A DNA stretch of 13,130 bases from Cudoniella acicularis (Eukaryota; Ascomycota; Leotiomycetes; Helotiales; Helotiaceae). The translations under genes and the position numbers were made by a program. Under the pieces are notes generated by a model. The model was given only the letters and a program-made list of their open reading frames with translations. It did not search any database and had not been told where the DNA came from. Position 1 is the stretch's first letter. Every line of letters starts with the position of its first letter. The stretch lies in NCBI GenBank assembly GCA_013054445.1, contig JAAMPI010001557.1, positions 1-13,130 on the forward strand, written 5' to 3'. Below, in pieces: positions 1-12,864 of the stretch.

Positions 1-400
1 GAGGCATGACTCTATATATGGGTGCAAGCAGTGCAACGTTTACTTATGTCAAAATAGGGGTTGTTTTGATGTATTTCACCGGCAAAGTTGAGAATTGATG
101 CTTTTGATACGCGAATACCGCTCTCTAATTGGCTATAATTAAGCGAGAATCGATGCGCACGGGCCAGGGCGCTCTGGTGGCAGCGTAGCGGATAGGGCAT
201 TTTACAAGTAAATCAAAAATTAAAAATCGTAAGTTTTAAAAAGGTAATTAATAAATACTATCTTTATCTTCTAAAACTCGCGATTATTTATATTATAAAC
301 TATAATTATTCTTAGTTATTTTGTAACTTCAAAGTGATCGCGGCAAGTCTAGTTTTTAGAAGCCTGAAGGAAGGGTCGCGAAGCCTAAAAATCGCTTAAA
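1..400. other. AT-rich gene-poor flank
   Basis: Roughly 200-330 is very AT-rich, made of T/A runs with many stop codons in all frames, and no intact gene is visible. The composition is unlike the coding DNA that starts near 435. In filamentous fungi such blocks are usually decayed, RIP-mutated transposons. That origin is inference here; the sequence only shows the base composition and the lack of coding. Confidence 0.6.
12..200 (-). pseudogene. Possible Tc1/mariner-type transposase N-terminal relic
   Basis: The minus strand reads open for 62 codons. It carries a stretch around residues 20-39 (LNYSQLESGIRVSKASILNF) that resembles the helix-turn-helix of fungal Tc1/mariner or pogo-like transposases, which often read 'G.sYsqi...tGVSksTi..i...A...g'. 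A basic, Arg-rich start and a following Asn/Pro segment also fit loosely. No catalytic DDE part follows, so at most this is an N-terminal fragment. The resemblance is from memory of the family pattern and could be chance. Confidence 0.25.
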
Positions 401-401
401 A

Positions 402-1016
402 ATGCCCTGTAAGAACCAGACTTCTGACCTCAGGCTCGTAACCTCCTCTCACGTTTCCCTTTACCTAACAACATACGGTCCACCTATTGGTACTGCACTT
501 GGAATCTGTGCTTGGCTCGAGACTACCAAGGGAACGTACGGAACGATCAACATCGACACCACGTTTGAGAATTGGCCTATGTTCACAGGCTGTCTCGTCA
601 GTCTTGTAATTCCGCTCTTGATGTGGGGTGCCATGCGACCATTTATGAAAGAGGCTTATGATTGGGATCTTCTTTTCCTAATGGTTGCTCGGGATCCCGG
701 ACCGGGTGATAAAAGCTTTACGCACGAAGATGATGACAGTTTAGGATTAGGCTACGACACTAAGGAACTTCCCCAGGCGTCATTTATGGAGAAAAGTGTA
801 TCTGCGGTTCTTTGTCTGATATTCTTGATTATTATTCCGTTTCCGATGTATGGGAGCGGACATGCCATGTCTAGAAAGTTCTTTATTGTGTGGACTGTTC
901 TAGTATTCTTGTGGAGTTGGACAGCAGCGTTGATGATTTGGTTTATGCCCGTTTGGCCGTCGAGGAAAGCTTTGGTAAAGGTTGCGAAGGGAATTTTCGA
1001 CCGGGAAGAAGGCTGA
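402..1016 (+). pseudogene. C-terminal fragment of DUR3-type urea/polyamine symporter
   Basis: This open frame of 204 codons matches the end of fungal DUR3/UreA proteins, plasma-membrane proton symporters of the sodium:solute symporter family that import urea and polyamines. Visible family marks are TYGPPIGTALG and a YG..N.DTT segment, then a hydrophobic helix after WPMFTG, the cytosolic YDWD motif (residues 86-89), a last loop, PFPMYGSG, and two more transmembrane stretches. It ends near a basic tail as the family does. Full DUR3 proteins are about 650-700 residues, so about two thirds are missing. The frame is open upstream only to position 360, where a stop occurs, and the family likeness begins near 460. 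A CTGAC..CTCAG stretch at 426-433 looks like an old intron acceptor, so the surviving piece may be the last exon. Upstream is AT-rich DNA with no further exon. The ATG at 402 is therefore probably not an original start. A working gene with a very long intron reaching outside the window is possible but unlikely. Confidence 0.7.
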
Positions 1017-2149: not shown

Positions 2150-4116
2150 CTAGCTTTTTATAGAGCTTGAGCTGGCTGTCATTTTATCTATACTTGACGT
2201 ACTGGGAGGGTCAAGACTGTTCCACCCTTTAATTCCTGTCTCTGAAGTTGCTGTTGCTTCGTCCGCTGTCGTGCTCGCGGTGTCATCTGCTGCAGTTCCA
2301 AGCATGCCCATTAAGAAATGGTCTTGATTCTCGATCATAAACACCAGCGTGTCGGCTGCTCGAACATGGTCGAGAACCGACATCCCAACACTTGCCTCTC
2401 TCGCAAGCAAGCTGGGTTGAAATGCTGCTACCATTCGCGCAGAAGTCATCTTGTTCGTGTTGGACTTTTCTATAAACACTGCAATGGCATCGAGGAGATA
2501 AAGAAGAAGTTGTCGATTGAGAGGAGGGAATTCTGCGATGTGTTGTTGAAGGGTCGAAATGGCGACGTCGATCGAGAATGCGTTGCGGTCATAACCTTCA
2601 TCGTTTTCATAAACAGTAGGACCGAGTATAGACGTACATTTGTCGTAAAATTCATACGGTATCACAGGTTCGGGAAGGCGCTTGAGATACCTCAAAAGGC
2701 ATGTTGCGGCCTCATAAACAGAATACCCTGTCCAATCAAGTTTCCTGCCGTAGTTTTGATCCGGTCCCGGAGTGTCGAAACGCATCTCAAGTTCATGAAC
2801 ACGAACTGCTGAACCATTGCGAGCAAAAATATCTTCACTTGTTGTCCCTGTATAGTCTGTCAGCGGTAGCTCGGAGGAGAATAGAAGTCAACATACCCTT
2901 TTCCTTGAGATATACACCAATCTTCGCGACCACAACAGGCAAATAGCCATATATATAGGACCTTCCACCTGCATCAGCCAGACTGATAGAAGCATTGGCG
3001 TACGCAATGCTACGGCGGAGTGGTACTCCAAATATCATTGTGGGAATGTCTACACTTCCTGCGTCGGCTTGAGGAGGTGTTGTACGTCGAGCCCACCATG
3101 ACTTGAGAGCCTTCTTCGTTTCAGAGGTAACCTTACTTGAGCCGCTCTGTTTCTCGGGAATGTTCTTGTTTGCATTACCAAAATCAATTTGAGTACCAGT
3201 AAAGTCTCCAAAGCTGTAGATATTACTGTTGCTTAGATCTTGTTCATAGATCGGGAGAGCTTGCACCGCAATAATCGAAATATTGTCTGCGAGACTCAGA
3301 CCTGATAACATCGACCATGACGCAGTCCTGCCTGCTGAAGAAATGGCAGAGAATGCGCCATTGTCGGTCCTTACCGCTGATCGTTTGTACACCCAGGAAT
3401 TACCCAGTTCCTCTTCAAAGGCAAAACCTTGTGCGTTCCGCTGAAAGTTATCAGGTGCTGGCTGTATATTCTCGATTTTGGTGAATGTCGGCAAGGCTGC
3501 AGGGAGTTGGATTGTAACTCCAAGTCCTACTTCTATAGAAGCTAGACGTTGTGCAATCAATATATTGCTCTCAAGAACGCGTTGAATCGTCGTTGATAGC
3601 ATATCAACTGCATCTTCCGCCATTCTCATAGACTCACTAAAACGGAATGTGAACAAGGGCATTATGTATTTGAATAAAGCAAGCTCACCAAGTTAGGATG
3701 GTCATCATCAAAGTCAAAGTGCTTTTGTGCACCTCCAATTTTTGCATATGTTCCTGAATGGTCGAAGTCTTAGTTGCCCAGCGTAGGCGATCCAGCAGTC
3801 CCATGTTAGCATCTGCCCCCAGAGTTTCCACAAAGACATCGAGGTCTGAAAAGGTGGTCACACAAGCCGAAAGTGTAATGACAATCTGTTCGACCAGAAT
3901 CAATGAAGTGCGATTTCGGCCGACTTGAGATTTTCCGATTAGCATCAATTGCAACTGCGATAGTACAATTCTGATACCATCGACGCTTGACTTCATCTCT
4001 TTGATCTCCTCGGGTGCATTGGCAGCCTTCTTGATAAGCGGCTGTAATGTGGATGAGACCTGATCTGCTGCCGTCAAGAGGCCAATAATGGCCATAGTAA
4101 CACTGAGAGGATCCAT
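2150..4116 (-). CDS. HeLo-like_N (STAND-type N-terminal) + RhoGAP fusion protein, three exons
   Basis: I join three exons on the minus strand: 4116-3689, 3636-2897 and 2847-2150. The introns are 3688-3637 (GTGAGC..TTTTAG, 52 nt) and 2896-2848 (GTATGT..TACAG, 49 nt, with a GCTGAC branch site). Together they give 621 residues in one frame. Residues 1 to about 190 start with MDPLSVTMAIIGLLTAADQV and run through 'LTLMMTIL-TCES' across the first splice into a long helix ending 'RLASIE'. This is the pattern of the fungal N-terminal domain of STAND/NLR proteins (HeLo-like_N). Residues about 210-300 hold a linker seen with this N-terminal type (FAFEEELGNSWVYKR, then WSMLSGLSLAD). Residues about 345-565 are a Sac7-like RhoGAP domain: FGVPLRRS, YIYGYLPVVVAK, LDWTGYSVYEAA, RYLKRLPEPVIP, LNRQLLLYLLD, NKMT, FQPSLL and IENQDHFL. 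Such domains normally switch off Rho1-type GTPases. Here the splice join reads EDIFARNGS, so the arginine-finger position is Ala398, with an Arg one place later. The conserved Asn after NKMT is Arg527. Catalytic activity is therefore doubtful. No NACHT, NB-ARC or repeat domain is present. The last ~55 residues are Ser/Thr-rich. The start ATG at 4116 is favoured by the domain beginning exactly there. Confidence 0.85.
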
Positions 4117-4360: not shown

Positions 4361-4503
4361 TTCAATTTCATTGCTATATTTAATAGTACAAATAGTTTGT
4401 TAAACTTATGAAACGTAGTATATGTATTCCGTAGAAAGTAAAATACTAAGGCTTAAAGTTTTAACGAGGAATGATTTGTTATATCCGAAATAATCTAGTG
4501 TCA

Positions 4504-4539
4504 GGGGAGTGTGTCAATATTGACCACTCATTTCTCCCC
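4504..4539. repeat. Imperfect palindrome centred on TCAATATTGA
   Basis: The core GTCAATATTGAC (4513-4524) is flanked by GAGTG on the left and CACTC on the right with one inserted base. After a four-base ATTT bulge on the right, the outer arms GGGG(AG) and (CT)CCCC also pair. It could form a hairpin or mark the end of a mobile element. No function is assigned. Confidence 0.5.
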
Positions 4540-4625
4540 CGAGGAGATACATTAATTATTTAGCGAGCGCGTAAGCAATTGCCCGCAAAGAAAAAAGAAC
4601 ATATGATTTCGCGGGGTAAGAACAC

Positions 4626-4641
4626 CAAAAGTCGACTTTTG
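4626..4641. repeat. 16-bp perfect palindrome centred on a SalI-type GTCGAC
   Basis: CAAAAGTC followed by GACTTTTG is an exact palindrome. With one extra G on the right, the pairing extends outward to CAC (4623-4625) and GTG (4643-4645). It lies in the gene-free AT-rich block about 90 bp after the previous palindrome. Confidence 0.6.
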
Positions 4642-5138
4642 CGTGCCAAACAGCTAGGAATTATAAGCGCACGACGACGGCTTTTTATTAATTCGCGAGC
4701 CTTGTATACAATTTTAATTTATTACTTGGAGAATTAATAAAAGATGTGTATGTCGCCGTAAATGAATTTATATCGTGTTCAGAATCGTTTATTAGTGAGT
4801 AATTAATTAATTAAGATTAGAATTTCAAATATAAAATCACGGGGTAATTTAATCTCGCTCACTAAGAATACTTAATAAATACTAGGTACTCTTAGGGGCC
4901 ATATGCGCCTAATGAACGCTAGCGAAAGAAAGAAGCAAAATTAGGTCTCTAGGAATCCTTAGAACAAGTAAGGGGAGCAGAACAGGCGTCCCCGGGTGGG
5001 AAACTACAGCCGAGTCGGATGTAACGTTAGTTTAAGGTAATACATTTTGGGGTTGAATGAGGCTGGTGAAGTTTGAGCCATTCGAGAGTCGGTAAAAAGA
5101 TTATATATAGTTCAACCCGCGGAAAAGATAAGGGGCTA

Positions 5139-5201
5139 TGTAAGACAATGTCTCTGACGATGAGGCTATAAGGTAACTTTCATGTCGTTGTAAGACATTG
5201 T
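5139..5201. repeat. 13-bp imperfect direct repeat spaced 50 bp
   Basis: TGTAAGACAATGT at 5139-5151 recurs as TGTAAGACATTGT at 5189-5201, one mismatch in 13. The core AAGACAATGTC/GACATTGT also contains a partly inverted GACA..TGTC element. The function is unknown; chance is possible in AT-rich DNA. Confidence 0.4.
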
Positions 5202-5617
5202 AGGGCGTATCCCCGAGAACTTAAGATATAATACTTCATCAGGTAAATAACTGAAAGGTCTGGATATCAGAAGATAGAACATACCCCGGGCGGAAGAAAA
5301 ATCTGGAACACTTGTAAATTAAAGCCCTTGCACTTAAACATTCGACCCCCTAAGTGACAGAAGACAACTTCGTACACGATATAAGAAAGGAATGCAAAAC
5401 AAACGGAGAGGAATATCCGAAAAAGGAAGCAAACAAGAGTAACGAATGGAAGTTATTTAAGATAACAGACGTTGTCTATTTAGATATAGTATACCTATAG
5501 CTTCTACAACCATAATTGGCCGGTAATACAAAACCATCGCTATGCAGATGCAGCAATCTATTTCACTATGCCGCCATACGCCATGCCTTGAACGCCATAT
5601 CCTATGTTGAGACACCA

Positions 5618-7954
5618 CTACCTCTTCGGCGCCCAGTTCTCCAACCACTTCCTCGCATCATCAAGCCTTCCCGCCTCAGCTTCGCAGGCAGCAACGCACC
5701 ACTCGAAATCAAAGATACTCTCAGCAGCCAGCATTTCCGCCAATTTCCTCCGCTTTTGACTTGAGTCATCAACACAGAAATACATCGCTGCACTCCGATC
5801 CTCATATATGGCCATAAGTGGTCTCACCATCGGCAGAGCTTCCTGCGCAGAAAGAGATTCATTGCCTTTTCCGGCTTTGGCTCTAGCAGTCTTGCAGAAT
5901 TCGTTCGTGCACCAGGCGTTGCCGCAGCCTTTGATTAATTGGCCTAGGTATCGGCGCTCAACTCTTCGTTTTAGAGCTTTGCCTTCGGGGTCGAAGATGC
6001 TGACATATAGGGGACCAAAGCAAATACTGCAGATTCCGAGGTCGTTTCCAGGTCCTTGTCCCATTCGACTTCCGGCTCCAATTCCACCATTCTTGCCTAC
6101 GCCATGAAGTGTACGGCCGCAGTTGACGTTTCTGCATATGGCAGGTTTAGATCGCGATGCCTTTTCCAAGTCATGATGTCGTAAATGGGTGGCCATGTCT
6201 CGAAGCCGTATAATCTTGGAGCAGAGGTGGCAGTCGGTTGTTCTTGCGCCGTCGGCGAGTTCATGTGCTGTTAATCCTGAAATGAGAGCCTCGGGAGAAG
6301 GATCGAAGGGATCGCCCTCTTGTGGTACTTCGAGATGACAAAATTGGCAAAGGATGATTTTCCCAGGACATATCGAAGTTCGGTGGGTGGCAAAGTCTCT
6401 GAGATTTGAGGCTTCGTATGGACAGTTGGGACAGGGTCGAGATTGATGCGTGATTTCATCGTGTTTTAATTTGCTTGACGTGGTGTTTCCATGTGCAAAA
6501 TCATAAGGACAATGCCAATGATCTTCCCACTCCCGAGACTTCTTTTGGAAAACATTCGAGCAGTGAGGGCATAGAATGTTATTTCGTAAACAGAAATTCT
6601 CGTGAAGCATCATGGTTCGTTTTGGAATCCATTTTTGACAATTTTTGCATTGTTCCTCATCTGGAGAATGCATTTCTGTATCTTCATCCAATGATACGGG
6701 GTTCTTTGCAGAGCCTGCGCCAGCTTCTTTTGGTATTAGTTGTACTCGCAGAGAGAATTTGCGCGGGACTGATGCTTGCCCATCTCCGACAGGGTGTGCG
6801 CGGACGGAAACAAGTAAGGCTTCTGCATTTTCCAATTCGACATTTGTAGGTTGTATGACGATCTTCTTCGAATCATCATTGCTGAAGTCCCCAAAAACAT
6901 GCTCGTCCTCTCTTGGCCTCGCTCTCTGTCGTGGTGAGAAGGGACTTACAAACAGCTGCACATCCTCGCCGTCTTCAGTAGCCAATTCGATATCAATCAC
7001 TTGCGTTCGATCCCAAGAGGGCAGTCGGTAATCAACATAATCTCCGTTCAGCACCTGCCCGGTTGTTACTTTCCATATACTCAAATCACCCCCCACAGAA
7101 CTTCCTTCAGCAGTTCCAGGAGCCTTTTGTGCTTTCGCCGCAATTTGCTTCAATGTCTCCCGCGCTTGTTCCTCATTCAGAGCCTCAATATCCACTTCCA
7201 AATCTGTATCTACAACGCATATGCCATCTCCTTCTGGTGCGAGCTTATCGATCAGGAACCGGAATTCTTCTGACTTCGATGACCCTCGGACGGTGAGTAT
7301 TTCCCCACTTGTCAATGTCGTGAAGTTTTCTCGCAGATGTCTTTCCAACAATGACTTCCAGTCCTCGGGATTGTATCCTGCCTCTAGAGGGCGCAATCGA
7401 ACGTATGCTCCTTTCGGTAATTGTTTTGCATGAACAGTGATTTGCGGAGGCTCCTCGTCGTCATCATCATCGTCCCCGGTAAGGTCGATTGGCTGGGTAA
7501 GGTCCACGGGCGCAGAAGGAGATCCAGTGCCGTTGGAGTGTATAGACGAACGTTTGGACCGTGGTTTCGGCTCTTCGACTCCCAATGCCTCCAGCAGAAA
7601 TGGACTCAATTCGACCTCTCCTTCTTCCGCCGAAAACTCCCGAATCCCCGCGTGTACCACATTGCCGTTCTTCGAATTTACCAGGCGAAATGTAAGAGGG
7701 TGTGGGAGCTGTTGTTGGGTATCCCGCCACTCGGATTGCTGTGCGCGCGCTGCTGCGAGGGAATATGGATTGAATGGATCGAAGGTGGCGTTTAGTGGCC
7801 GAGTCGTAGAGGTGACTGTGACTGTAGATGCGGCGAGGAGCTGCTCAAGTGCAGATTGTGGGAGGAGGATCTTGTCCCCTGGCAGAGTCTTGTTGCTCCT
7901 GGCTGCTACCTTGAAGACGGCAGACCAGGCAAGAGAGATCTCGGGCATGGTCAT
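5618..7954 (-). CDS. UFD1-family protein with zinc-finger array and C-terminal AZUL-type domain
   Basis: This is a single uninterrupted reading frame of 778 residues. Residues about 1-255 match the UFD1 double-barrel fold: DKILLPQSALEQL near 27-39, HPLTFRLVN near 85-93, VELSPFLLEALGV, then VRLRPLEAGY and DWKSLLERHLRENFTTLTSG near 185-217. UFD1 works with NPL4 and the Cdc48/p97 ATPase to extract ubiquitinated proteins for the proteasome. An acidic D-rich patch lies at 160-168. A run of Cys/His pairs at 436-595 (C436-C439, H451, C455, C462-C465, H479, C482, C508-C511, C536-C539, C575-C578) looks like TRAF-type/C2H2 zinc fingers. C607-C612 and C642-C645 lead into RRYLGQLIKGCGNAWCTNEF (668-687), closely like the AZUL zinc domain of the UBE3A ligase. 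It is about twice as long as yeast Ufd1 (361 residues), which suggests a filamentous-fungal UFD1-like family rather than the core subunit. ATGs at 7954 and 7948 are both usable. It faces an F-box gene across a shared promoter. Confidence 0.9.
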   Translation of the reverse strand: MTMPEISLAWSAVFKVAARSNKTLPGDKILLPQSALEQLLAASTVTVTSTTRPLNATFDPFNPYSLAAARAQQSEWRDTQQQLPHPLTFRLVNSKNGNVVHAGIREFSAEEGEVELSPFLLEALGVEEPKPRSKRSSIHSNGTGSPSAPVDLTQPIDLTGDDDDDDEEPPQITVHAKQLPKGAYVRLRPLEAGYNPEDWKSLLERHLRENFTTLTSGEILTVRGSSKSEEFRFLIDKLAPEGDGICVVDTDLEVDIEALNEEQARETLKQIAAKAQKAPGTAEGSSVGGDLSIWKVTTGQVLNGDYVDYRLPSWDRTQVIDIELATEDGEDVQLFVSPFSPRQRARPREDEHVFGDFSNDDSKKIVIQPTNVELENAEALLVSVRAHPVGDGQASVPRKFSLRVQLIPKEAGAGSAKNPVSLDEDTEMHSPDEEQCKNCQKWIPKRTMMLHENFCLRNNILCPHCSNVFQKKSREWEDHWHCPYDFAHGNTTSSKLKHDEITHQSRPCPNCPYEASNLRDFATHRTSICPGKIILCQFCHLEVPQEGDPFDPSPEALISGLTAHELADGARTTDCHLCSKIIRLRDMATHLRHHDLEKASRSKPAICRNVNCGRTLHGVGKNGGIGAGSRMGQGPGNDLGICSICFGPLYVSIFDPEGKALKRRVERRYLGQLIKGCGNAWCTNEFCKTARAKAGKGNESLSAQEALPMVRPLMAIYEDRSAAMYFCVDDSSQKRRKLAEMLAAESIFDFEWCVAACEAEAGRLDDARKWLENWAPKR

Positions 7955-8536
7955 GATTGTGACAAAGGCGAGGAGTTTTGAAGGTATTCCCAGTGGCTAA
8001 TGCGCATTTCAAGAACAACAGATGAAGTGCGATTTGGAGGAGAGAGAAACAAGGCTTTGTACCCAGCGAACAAGTATTAACGAGTCCTAGAAGTGAGGAT
8101 TTGTGACGAGGTTTTGTCAGCCTTTCGAGAAGATGCTATTGCCGCGACCGCACGTGATTATCACGATAAGGCGATAACGGTTAAGCTTAAATTCGGGTAA
8201 ACCCCGGGTGAGAAAACAAAGGCACGTGCCTCAACATTTGGCTGGCGCTGGTCCGCTAAATGATGAATGGGCCGATGCGAAGCGCTCATGAGCTCATCCA
8301 AGATCCAGTTCCCCGACTTCCAACCAAAGGAGTTCGCCAACCTTCAACATTGGGGATCCCAGCGTGTCTCACACCGTCTGCAGTTGCCTGGCCACATCTC
8401 CATCTGTATCTACATCTAAATACCCATTCGCATCCTCGTATATTTCCCATCTTTCTATACTTCCCACCTTTCCATCCTTCTTGGGCCCTCGCATTCCACC
8501 GCATACCACCGCATAGGAAAAGTACTGGCCATTGCC
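7955..8536. promoter_or_regulatory. Divergent promoter with CACGTG and GATA sites
   Basis: This 582-bp interval separates two head-to-head genes. It contains CACGTG at 8151-8156 and the 10-bp palindrome GGCACGTGCC at 8221-8230. Three HGATAR-type sites sit within 20 bp: TTATCA 8158-8163, CGATAA 8164-8169 and CGATAA 8172-8177. CACGTG is the site of bHLH factors such as Cbf1, and HGATAR that of fungal GATA factors (AreA, SreA and others). The grouping is seen directly; use by these factors is inference. The part close to 8536 is CT-rich. Confidence 0.5.
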
Positions 8537-11659: not shown

Positions 11660-12864
11660 ATGCAACTCATCACTTCTCTTACTATCGCTGCAACGCTCTT
11701 GGGTAGCAACGTTCTTGCTCACCCCGGACATGATGCCCGCCATGAAATTGAAGAGCGTGCTGCTTTCATGAAGCACAGCAAGAAAGACCTTAGCCACTGT
11801 GCAGCTAAAATGAAGACTAGAGGTTTAGAGCATAGGGCTGTTGCTCGACGAACCGCAGTTGCTAAGGATGCTCGGAGAAAGAGAAGCATTGCTGCAAGTA
11901 AGCATAACCAAATACTTTTGTTAATCTTATGCGGAAATTAACTTTACTAGATGCACCATACCTCAAAGCTCGGGATCTTGCTTCTGTTGTAAACACTACT
12001 CACTTGTCCTCCGTCGACTACGACGCCTCCACAGATGAATCCGTTCTCTTCTCGGGCAACAGCTCCTGCATTCTCAGCCCAGAAGTTACTCAGGGGCCAT
12101 ACTGTTCGTCCTTCATCCCCTATTACTCTAGTTCGAATCGCTAACTTACTCTTCTAGACGTCAGTGGTGAATATGTCCGCAAGGATATCACCGAAGACCA
12201 AGAAGGCGTATCCCTAACCCTAGACACCCAAGTAATCGACATGGCAACCTGCGACCCAGTAACCGACGCCGTGATCGAAATCTGGCACTGCAATTCCACC
12301 GGCGTCTATTCCGGCATCGTCGCCTCAGGAAACGGCGTGGGCACCTCAGACCCCACAAACATCAACAACACGTTCCTACGGGGCCTCCAACCCACCGATT
12401 CCGACGGCGTCGCACAGTTCCAAACCCTTTTCCCAGGCCATTACACCTCTCGCGCAACACACATCCACGTCCTCGCTCACTTCAACGGCACAACCTACCC
12501 CAACGGCACCTACGGCGGCGGCTACGTAAGTCATGTTGGCCAGCTCTTCTTCGACCAAGATCTTATCACGCAAGTTGAAGCCACAGCTCCTTACTCAACC
12601 AACACGCAAGCCATCACCGACAACGCAGACGATAGTATCTTAAGCGAGGAAGCTGCCTCCTCTGATCCCGTTGTTGAATATAGTTTGCTGGGTGATGATG
12701 TGTCTGCTGGTGTTTTTGGCTGGATTGCTTTTGGCATCGATTTGACCAGCGAGCAGACGATTTCTGCGGCTGCGAGTTTGTACGCTGAAGGTGGGGTGGA
12801 GAATGCGAGTTCCAGTGGTGGACCGGGTGGAAATTCGACGGGTGGGGGAGCGCCGCCTTCGTAG
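11660..12864 (+). CDS. Secreted intradiol ring-cleavage dioxygenase
   Basis: Three exons, 11660-11897, 11951-12103 and 12158-12864, give 365 residues. The introns are 11898-11950 (GTAAGC..ACTAG, 53 nt) and 12104-12157 (GTTCGT..TCTAG, 54 nt, branch CTAAC). The enzyme would open catechol-type rings between the two hydroxyls using Fe(III). Residues 1-20 (MQLITSLTIAATLLGSNVLA) are a clear signal peptide, followed by HPGHD. Residues 21-80 form a basic pro-region with RRKRS at about 73-77, a possible Kex2-type cleavage site. The second splice restores QGPYYVSGEYVRKDI (127-141), typical of the extracellular fungal family. The iron ligands are all present: Tyr181 in GVYSG, Tyr226 in PGHY, and His232 and His234 in RATHIH. 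Arg229 is also in place. Several N-x-S/T sites are visible (for example NST, NNT, NGT). The tail is Gly/Ser-rich (GGPGGNSTGGGAPPS). It stands alone with no aromatic-pathway neighbour, consistent with an extracellular enzyme acting on phenolics. The family is clear; the substrate is inference. Confidence 0.9.

Follow-up and report, generated by a model that had tools for sequence, protein, structure and literature searches.

A HeLo-like N-terminal module fused to a RhoGAP domain without its canonical active site in Cudoniella acicularis and other Pezizomycotina

The stretch of DNA considered here (the window) is an entire contig, C619, of 13,130 bases from the 53.2-Mb, 1,836-contig assembly of the fungus Cudoniella acicularis. 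On its reverse strand lies a gene whose 621-residue product joins an N-terminal HeLo-like domain to a domain with the fold of the Rho GTPase-activating proteins (RhoGAPs). Across most of the family of such fused proteins, the canonical catalytic residues of the RhoGAP domain have been lost and consistently replaced, a finding that is firm. The domain design, as far as sequence can tell, suggests that these proteins read Rho signaling rather than switch Rho off.

Gene model and domains

Enumeration of introns of the GT/GC..AG type leaves one in-frame choice for intron 1 and eleven choices for intron 2 that retain more than 500 residues; among the latter, 2896-2848 gives the 621-residue model (Table 1). 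The GenBank protein of the same species, G7Y89_g13393 (P0001, 626 residues), is identical to this model over residues 1-604 and therefore uses the same two introns; the two differ at the C-terminus alone, after residue 604, because of a third intron in P0001. Furthermore, the GAP domain has 46 partial matches, mostly in environmental open reading frames (ORFs), 43 of which stop within residues 387-399, by the intron 2 junction at 389/390, and in P0004, P0014, P0010, and others, an insert is read through at this junction. Consequently, the position of intron 2 is conserved, and it is on conservation that the predicted two-intron structure of the transcript rests. Both the enumeration and the identity with P0001 uphold the splice junctions that had been proposed in a preliminary description of this locus.

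That description had also placed HeLo-like and RhoGAP domains in a single 621-residue frame, with no NACHT, NB-ARC, or repeat domain, and the Pfam scan agrees on each point. PF17111, whose present Pfam name is PigL_N, matches residues 1-178 (33.2 bits against a cut-off of 27.2, E 4.5e-8), and PF00620 (RhoGAP) matches residues 376-539 (86.8 bits against 24.5, E 1.7e-24); at E<=1 these are the only families found in the protein, and no NACHT, NB-ARC, or repeat domain is among the matches. According to the main text of PMC9815663, PF17111 corresponds to Helo_like_N of the fungal NLR literature and is used by NLR-associated cell-death proteins of fungi. In a structure model, residues 3-180 form a confident helical region, whose match to the MLKL/NLR bundles lies within the chance range for helical bundles, and the RhoGAP fold is present. 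Between the two lies a conserved middle element (about residues 200-300). It is found with several types of partner of the N-module, which is taken here as about residues 1-300.

Table 1. Positions in the window of the gene, its exons and introns, the domains, and the active-site residues
Feature	Position	Strand	Basis
Gene, 621-residue model	2150..4116	-	Intron enumeration and translation; stop codon ends at 2150
Exon 1 (residues 1 to 142 plus two bases)	3689..4116	-	Intron enumeration
Intron 1, 52 nt, GTGAGC..TTTTAG, no match to a CTRAY branch point	3637..3688	-	Sole in-frame choice; junction shared with P0001
Exon 2	2897..3636	-	Intron enumeration
Intron 2, 49 nt, GTATGT..ATACAG	2848..2896	-	Enumeration; position conserved in relatives
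Exon 3	2150..2847	-	Intron enumeration
GenBank alternative C-terminus, 626 residues	Third intron 2202-2118, last exon 2117-2050	-	Comparison with P0001
PigL_N/HeLo-like_N domain, residues 1-178, split by intron 1	3531..4116	-	PF17111 and model
Conserved middle element, about residues 200-300, GRTASWSMLSGLSL...ALPIY...N...Y in relatives	3165..3467	-	Alignment, low-confidence model
RhoGAP domain, about residues 343-572, split by intron 2	2300..3038	-	PF00620 and model
Ala398, arginine-finger position (R85 of p50RhoGAP)	2822..2824	-	Alignment, codon checked
Leu441, K122 position	2693..2695	-	Alignment
Lys445, R126 position (Asn in Sac7-like GAPs)	2681..2683	-	Alignment
Arg527, N194 position	2435..2437	-	Alignment

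The RhoGAP active site and its ancestry

The arginine finger of a RhoGAP speeds GTP hydrolysis. Its position was compared in an alignment of GAP domains, together with those of the further catalytic-site residues K122, R126, and N194 (p50RhoGAP numbering). The alignment holds 59 fused proteins (58 relatives plus the window protein, which replaces its duplicate P0001) and 22 of 23 GAPs without the N-module, which we take to be Sac7-like, a kinship judged in a comparison that did not contain yeast Sac7. The 59 derive from 69 proteins that match the GAP domain and some portion, at the least, of the N-module; ten that cover too little of the former (about 150 columns) were removed. The rows are mutually related, and Fusarium is over-represented among them. 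At the finger position, Arg is found in 2 of the 59 fused proteins versus all 22 Sac7-like GAPs. At the K122 position, 55 of 59 fused proteins have Leu and all 22 Sac7-like GAPs have Arg; at the R126 position, 54 of 59 have Lys and all 22 have Asn. At the N194 position, Arg is present in 48 of 57 fused proteins (two have gaps) and Asn in none, versus Asn in 21 of 22 Sac7-like GAPs. Having a GAP fold that lacks the arginine finger, the domain is a candidate pseudo-RhoGAP, a non-catalytic Rho binder.

Among 89 columns that are at least 95% conserved in the Sac7-like GAPs, 52 are kept in at least 70% of the fused proteins and 27 in at least 90%. The five least kept are 441, 527, 395, 398, and 445, four of which are catalytic; if columns are assumed to be interchangeable, the probability of finding four pre-named columns together in this set of five is 2e-6. 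In addition, the replacement residues are themselves conserved in the fused rows (Leu441 93%, Lys445 92%, and Arg527 84%), and the finger position of six further fused proteins with full-length GAP matches holds T, A, A, A, K, and I. The two best sequence matches in the PDB are the p50RhoGAP chains 2ngr_B and 5m6x_A, which, like the window protein, show IFAR at the place where IFR is found in active GAPs. The title of 5m6x identifies an arginine-finger mutant, R85A, in complex with RhoA; 2ngr is, we presume, the same mutant. The Arg beside Ala398 in IFAR was considered as a shifted finger, a reading that was dropped because this site varies among relatives, where it is often T, Q, C, H, or another residue.

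Over the scored stretch, the GAP domain is 47% identical to an ORF of the same genome (contig C1088) and 19-26% identical to three other RhoGAPs of that genome. In a midpoint-rooted, all-column tree of 83 GAP domains, the fused and Sac7-like rows stand together, apart from two of these three RhoGAPs and an Absidia protein (93/99), and a modestly supported branch (84/86) sets the fused proteins off from the adjoining Sac7-like GAPs. NCBI labels several relatives "GAP for Rho1p," and many of the proteins bear this label or "Rho GTPase activation protein" in databases. The Sac7-like affinity recognized in the preliminary description is borne out by the first of these labels and by the tree. The Rho1 control that it proposed is unlikely to be exerted by ordinary GAP activity, because almost the whole family has lost the canonical active site (the finger is missing in 57 of 59).

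Distribution, other partners, and surroundings

The survey that the preliminary description had suggested as a check finds the architecture widespread in Pezizomycotina. A whole-protein search at E<=0.001, in which the best 7,996 candidates were scored, listed 90 proteins; 36 of these, belonging to about 30 named fungi, have both Pfam domains according to precomputed annotation. Like the other homologue searches, it covered proteins 0.55-1.75 times the length of the query. The 35 other two-domain proteins among the matches listed are 36-54% identical to the window protein, and the closest named relative in the whole list of 90 is P0002 of Stipitochalara longipes (74% identity over 89% of the protein). 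The two-domain fusion is found in Cadophora, Leptodontidium, and Hyphodiscus (Leotiomycetes), Fusarium, Xylaria, and Pyricularia (Sordariomycetes), Endocarpon and Cladophialophora (Eurotiomycetes), Meristemomyces (Dothideomycetes), and the lichen fungi Candelaria and Trapelia. Searches seeded with the N-module, one of which listed 120 of 395 candidates, gave additional fungi such as Helicocarpus and Elasticomyces. P0099 and P0100 have N-modules followed by C-terminal halves that, by eye, are very diverged RhoGAP-like sequences, with no Pfam RhoGAP match at E<=0.01. In C. acicularis itself, a second N-module/RhoGAP locus (L023, contig C573, about 2350-3650, forward strand) looks broken: it lacks most of the helical bundle and contains in-frame stops. 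In another locus (L024, contig C139), the N-module is interrupted by a stop, and no partner was recognized. Judged by titles and the starts of abstracts, no description of the HeLo-like N-module with a RhoGAP was found in the open-access literature; in the available text of PMC6455062, a fungal RhoGAP appears only as the title of a reference.

The N-module also precedes other domains related to G proteins, as seen in a survey that was not exhaustive. In some of these proteins, PF17111 itself is below its cut-off (P0086, P0087, P0090, P0102, P0110, and the C957 locus described below) or has no match (P0084). The CRIB domain (PBD in Pfam) binds GTP-loaded Cdc42/Rac and has no catalysis. It lies behind the N-module in Fusarium, above cut-off in P0102, P0106, P0107, and P0110 and just under it in P0094; P0103, another N-module protein of Fusarium, has no PBD match. 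The HVTHVG motif is retained in the CRIB of P0102 and P0107, and P0106 is an 845-residue model in which an MFS transporter comes first, which may reflect a false join. A Ras-like GTPase follows the N-module in P0115 of Xylaria arbuscula and in C. acicularis (L025, contig C957, 2640-4576, reverse strand). The latter locus extends over several ORFs: one has the middle element together with a P-loop recognized by eye, and the ORF that follows in the same frame is Ras (E 6.4e-34), the stop between them presumably being inside an intron. In P0141, a G-alpha domain (302 bits) occupies residues 356-682. Alignment to solved structures indicates that the catalytic Gln is replaced by Ala in P0141 (GGQR to GGAR) and by Tyr at Gln61 of the C957 Ras (DTAGQE to DTTGYE), which also has NNSD for NKCD, and that P0115 has no Gln in DTPGLGTSD. 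Other partners are NPHP3_N with TPR in Orbilia (P0084), LIM in Apiospora (P0086), and, in Xylaria, a Cdc24-type PH domain (PH_10, E 2.7e-6 to L027, a PH_10 protein of the C. acicularis genome that is Cdc24-like by eye). A Cdc24-type DH domain was also sought in the Xylaria PH_10 proteins; it had no PDB sequence match, and hhalign to the DH of L027 gave a probability of 12% in local and 38% in global mode, so that support is confined to the PH domain.

Elsewhere in the window, the region upstream of the gene (4501-5500) is AT-rich, with a GC content of 0.39 and a TA/AT ratio above 1, as in DNA affected by repeat-induced point mutation; one partial copy of 4400-5550 exists elsewhere, on C1009 (80% over about 150 bp). 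A dispersed repeat of about 229 bp (192-420, forward strand) could be like a short interspersed nuclear element and has at least 44 further matches in the assembly at 76-94% identity, a count that is a lower bound since 40 of 224 candidates were scored. On the reverse strand, an ORF of 792 residues (5618-7996) has UFD1 N-terminal subdomains, DUF7590, an XAF1-type zinc finger, and AZUL, and is a putative UFD1-like protein with extras of the ubiquitin-ligase type. An ORF of the intradiol-dioxygenase type (12145-12864, forward strand; PF00775, 41.9 bits) is, by eye, apparently preceded by a signal-peptide-like exon near 11660. Pfam recognized no NLR-type domain in the gene or in six other ORFs of the window that were scanned.

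Possible function and comparison with known systems

These observations have led to a hypothesis to which we assign a probability of about 0.5. It holds that this Pezizomycotina family combines a HeLo-like bundle, the middle element, and a pseudo-GAP that would read the state of Rho1 to control the bundle. The pseudo-GAP would dock on a Rho GTPase in its GTP-loaded form, with Rho1 the likeliest candidate, but would not set off hydrolysis. The state or location of Rho would then govern the site at which the N-terminal bundle acts, or whether it acts at all; its action would probably be at a membrane or through oligomerizing. In some Fusarium proteins, CRIB fills the slot of the pseudo-GAP. The domain probably reads Rho-GTP, because the R85A mutant docks on RhoA (5m6x) and because plant class III formins, discussed below, provide a parallel.

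It should be noted that several observations weigh against this hypothesis. In RhoGAP structures, the changed residues sit in the contact surface, and thus Rho binding itself may have been lost. Confidence in the model (predicted local distance difference test, pLDDT) is mostly below 50 across the middle region, residues 200-340. The finger Arg is kept in P0021 (Candelaria) and P0027 (Trapelia), 2 of the 59, and the change of Asn to Arg is weaker in the six further fused proteins, three of which have Arg and the others Ser or Lys. Each of the three GTPase partners is represented by one example, and P0115 is best matched by Rap proteins, which likewise lack the Gln. Finally, trees built without active-site columns split up the fused rows and require three changes of label, of which well-supported branches force at least two. 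Two such trees were made, both without the divergent C. acicularis RhoGAPs own_L001 and own_L004 (own_L005 is in no tree): one lacks 32 columns around the active site and the long-branch fused rows P0083 and P0049, and the other lacks seven columns and the fused rows P0083, P0049, P0075, P0017, P0041, P0079, and P0057. In the latter, 48 core fused rows remain grouped (89/81), and with these data one fused clade is not rejected (approximately unbiased test, p 0.131). The finger state needs 5 changes on each tree. Thus the active-site change is firm, but the origin of the fusion in a single event is not secured. P0021 is the one protein that suggests fusion first and finger loss later.

Other explanations must be weighed against the same evidence. 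The GAP fold might no longer bind Rho and might be kept as a stable fold for protein interaction: all four positions tested differ from the Sac7-like GAPs, and the RhoGAP-like sequence of P0100 and P0099, unrecognized by Pfam, suggests drift in some lineages. However, Leu441, Lys445, and Arg527 are conserved across distant fungi, so drift alone is not sufficient, and the alternative G-protein-related partners point to a G-protein role; such a pure scaffold is a possible, if unlikely, explanation. We know of no RhoGAP with a relocated finger, and it is quite unlikely that the GAP has stayed active by using the conserved Arg527 in place of the lost arginine finger. The change at the N194 position is indeed common in the fused proteins (including three of the six further ones) and mostly accompanies finger loss, and relative to the Sac7-like GAPs, two positive charges are lost (398 and 441) and two gained (445 and 527); in addition, the available text of PMC2386819 names an alternative mechanism with Asn, that of Rap1GAP. 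Nevertheless, some fused proteins have neither Arg; P0010, for instance, has Tyr in place of the finger and Gln in place of the Asn, and P0030 has Ala and Ser. That two adjacent genes were wrongly joined is hardly credible, given the recurrence of both domains in the homologues at the identities stated above and an intron of conserved position within the GAP domain.

Two further proposals would give the fusion a role in defense. In one, which we regard as unlikely, the pseudo-GAP would be an integrated decoy or guard for Rho, a bait that senses attack on Rho or its misregulation and releases a HeLo-like death or membrane-damaging domain. The preliminary description's hint of a decoy role may be counted as right; the self/non-self or cell-death function is its own suggestion. 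The other is decidedly doubtful: a fungal class of sensors in which the HeLo-like N-module is joined to hydrolysis-disabled or binding-only parts of G-protein systems (pseudo-RhoGAP, CRIB, Gln-less G-alpha and Ras, and Cdc24-type PH), baits that would monitor Rho, Ras, and G-alpha and fire a membrane or death response. The active site contradicts the GAP labels that databases give to many of these proteins. If the Rho-reading hypothesis is true, a widespread family of fungal Rho regulators has been misannotated, an immune-type effector domain would be tied to Rho, Ras, and G-alpha circuits by repeated design, and the question of whether fungi monitor polarity and cell-wall signaling with disabled copies of its parts would become testable.

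Pseudo-RhoGAPs and HeLo-like fusions are each of a known kind; the link of their combination to immune-type signaling is unproven but testable. The domain shares with Sac7-like RhoGAPs the GAP fold and its FGVPL..SI.YAN..I start, but here the finger, K122, and N194 positions are replaced, and a HeLo-like N-module is added. The RhoGAP-like domain of OCRL is inactive; OCRL differs in its partners and in being an animal protein. The closer likeness in the active site is to plant class III formins, in which, according to the available text of PMC2386819, the finger is changed to a small residue and the Lys to Leu, as here, and the domain perhaps binds without activating; there, however, the GAP-like domain is fused to FH2 instead of a HeLo-like domain, and that text describes no change of Asn to Arg. 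The same text presents the BH domain of p85 as an inactive RhoGAP relative that, in contrast, retains its arginine finger; p85 likewise has other partners and is an animal protein. As for the N-terminal half, the words Rho and RhoGAP are absent from the main text of PMC9815663. A PF17111 match above the Pfam cut-off is shared with the fungal HeLo and HeLo-like cell-death proteins and NLR N-termini, but the C-terminal domain here is a putative pseudo-RhoGAP, with no NACHT or NB-ARC. Rho-guarding immunity is exemplified by pyrin, and the sensor class proposed above would be a fungal counterpart of such guarding that operates without an NLR.
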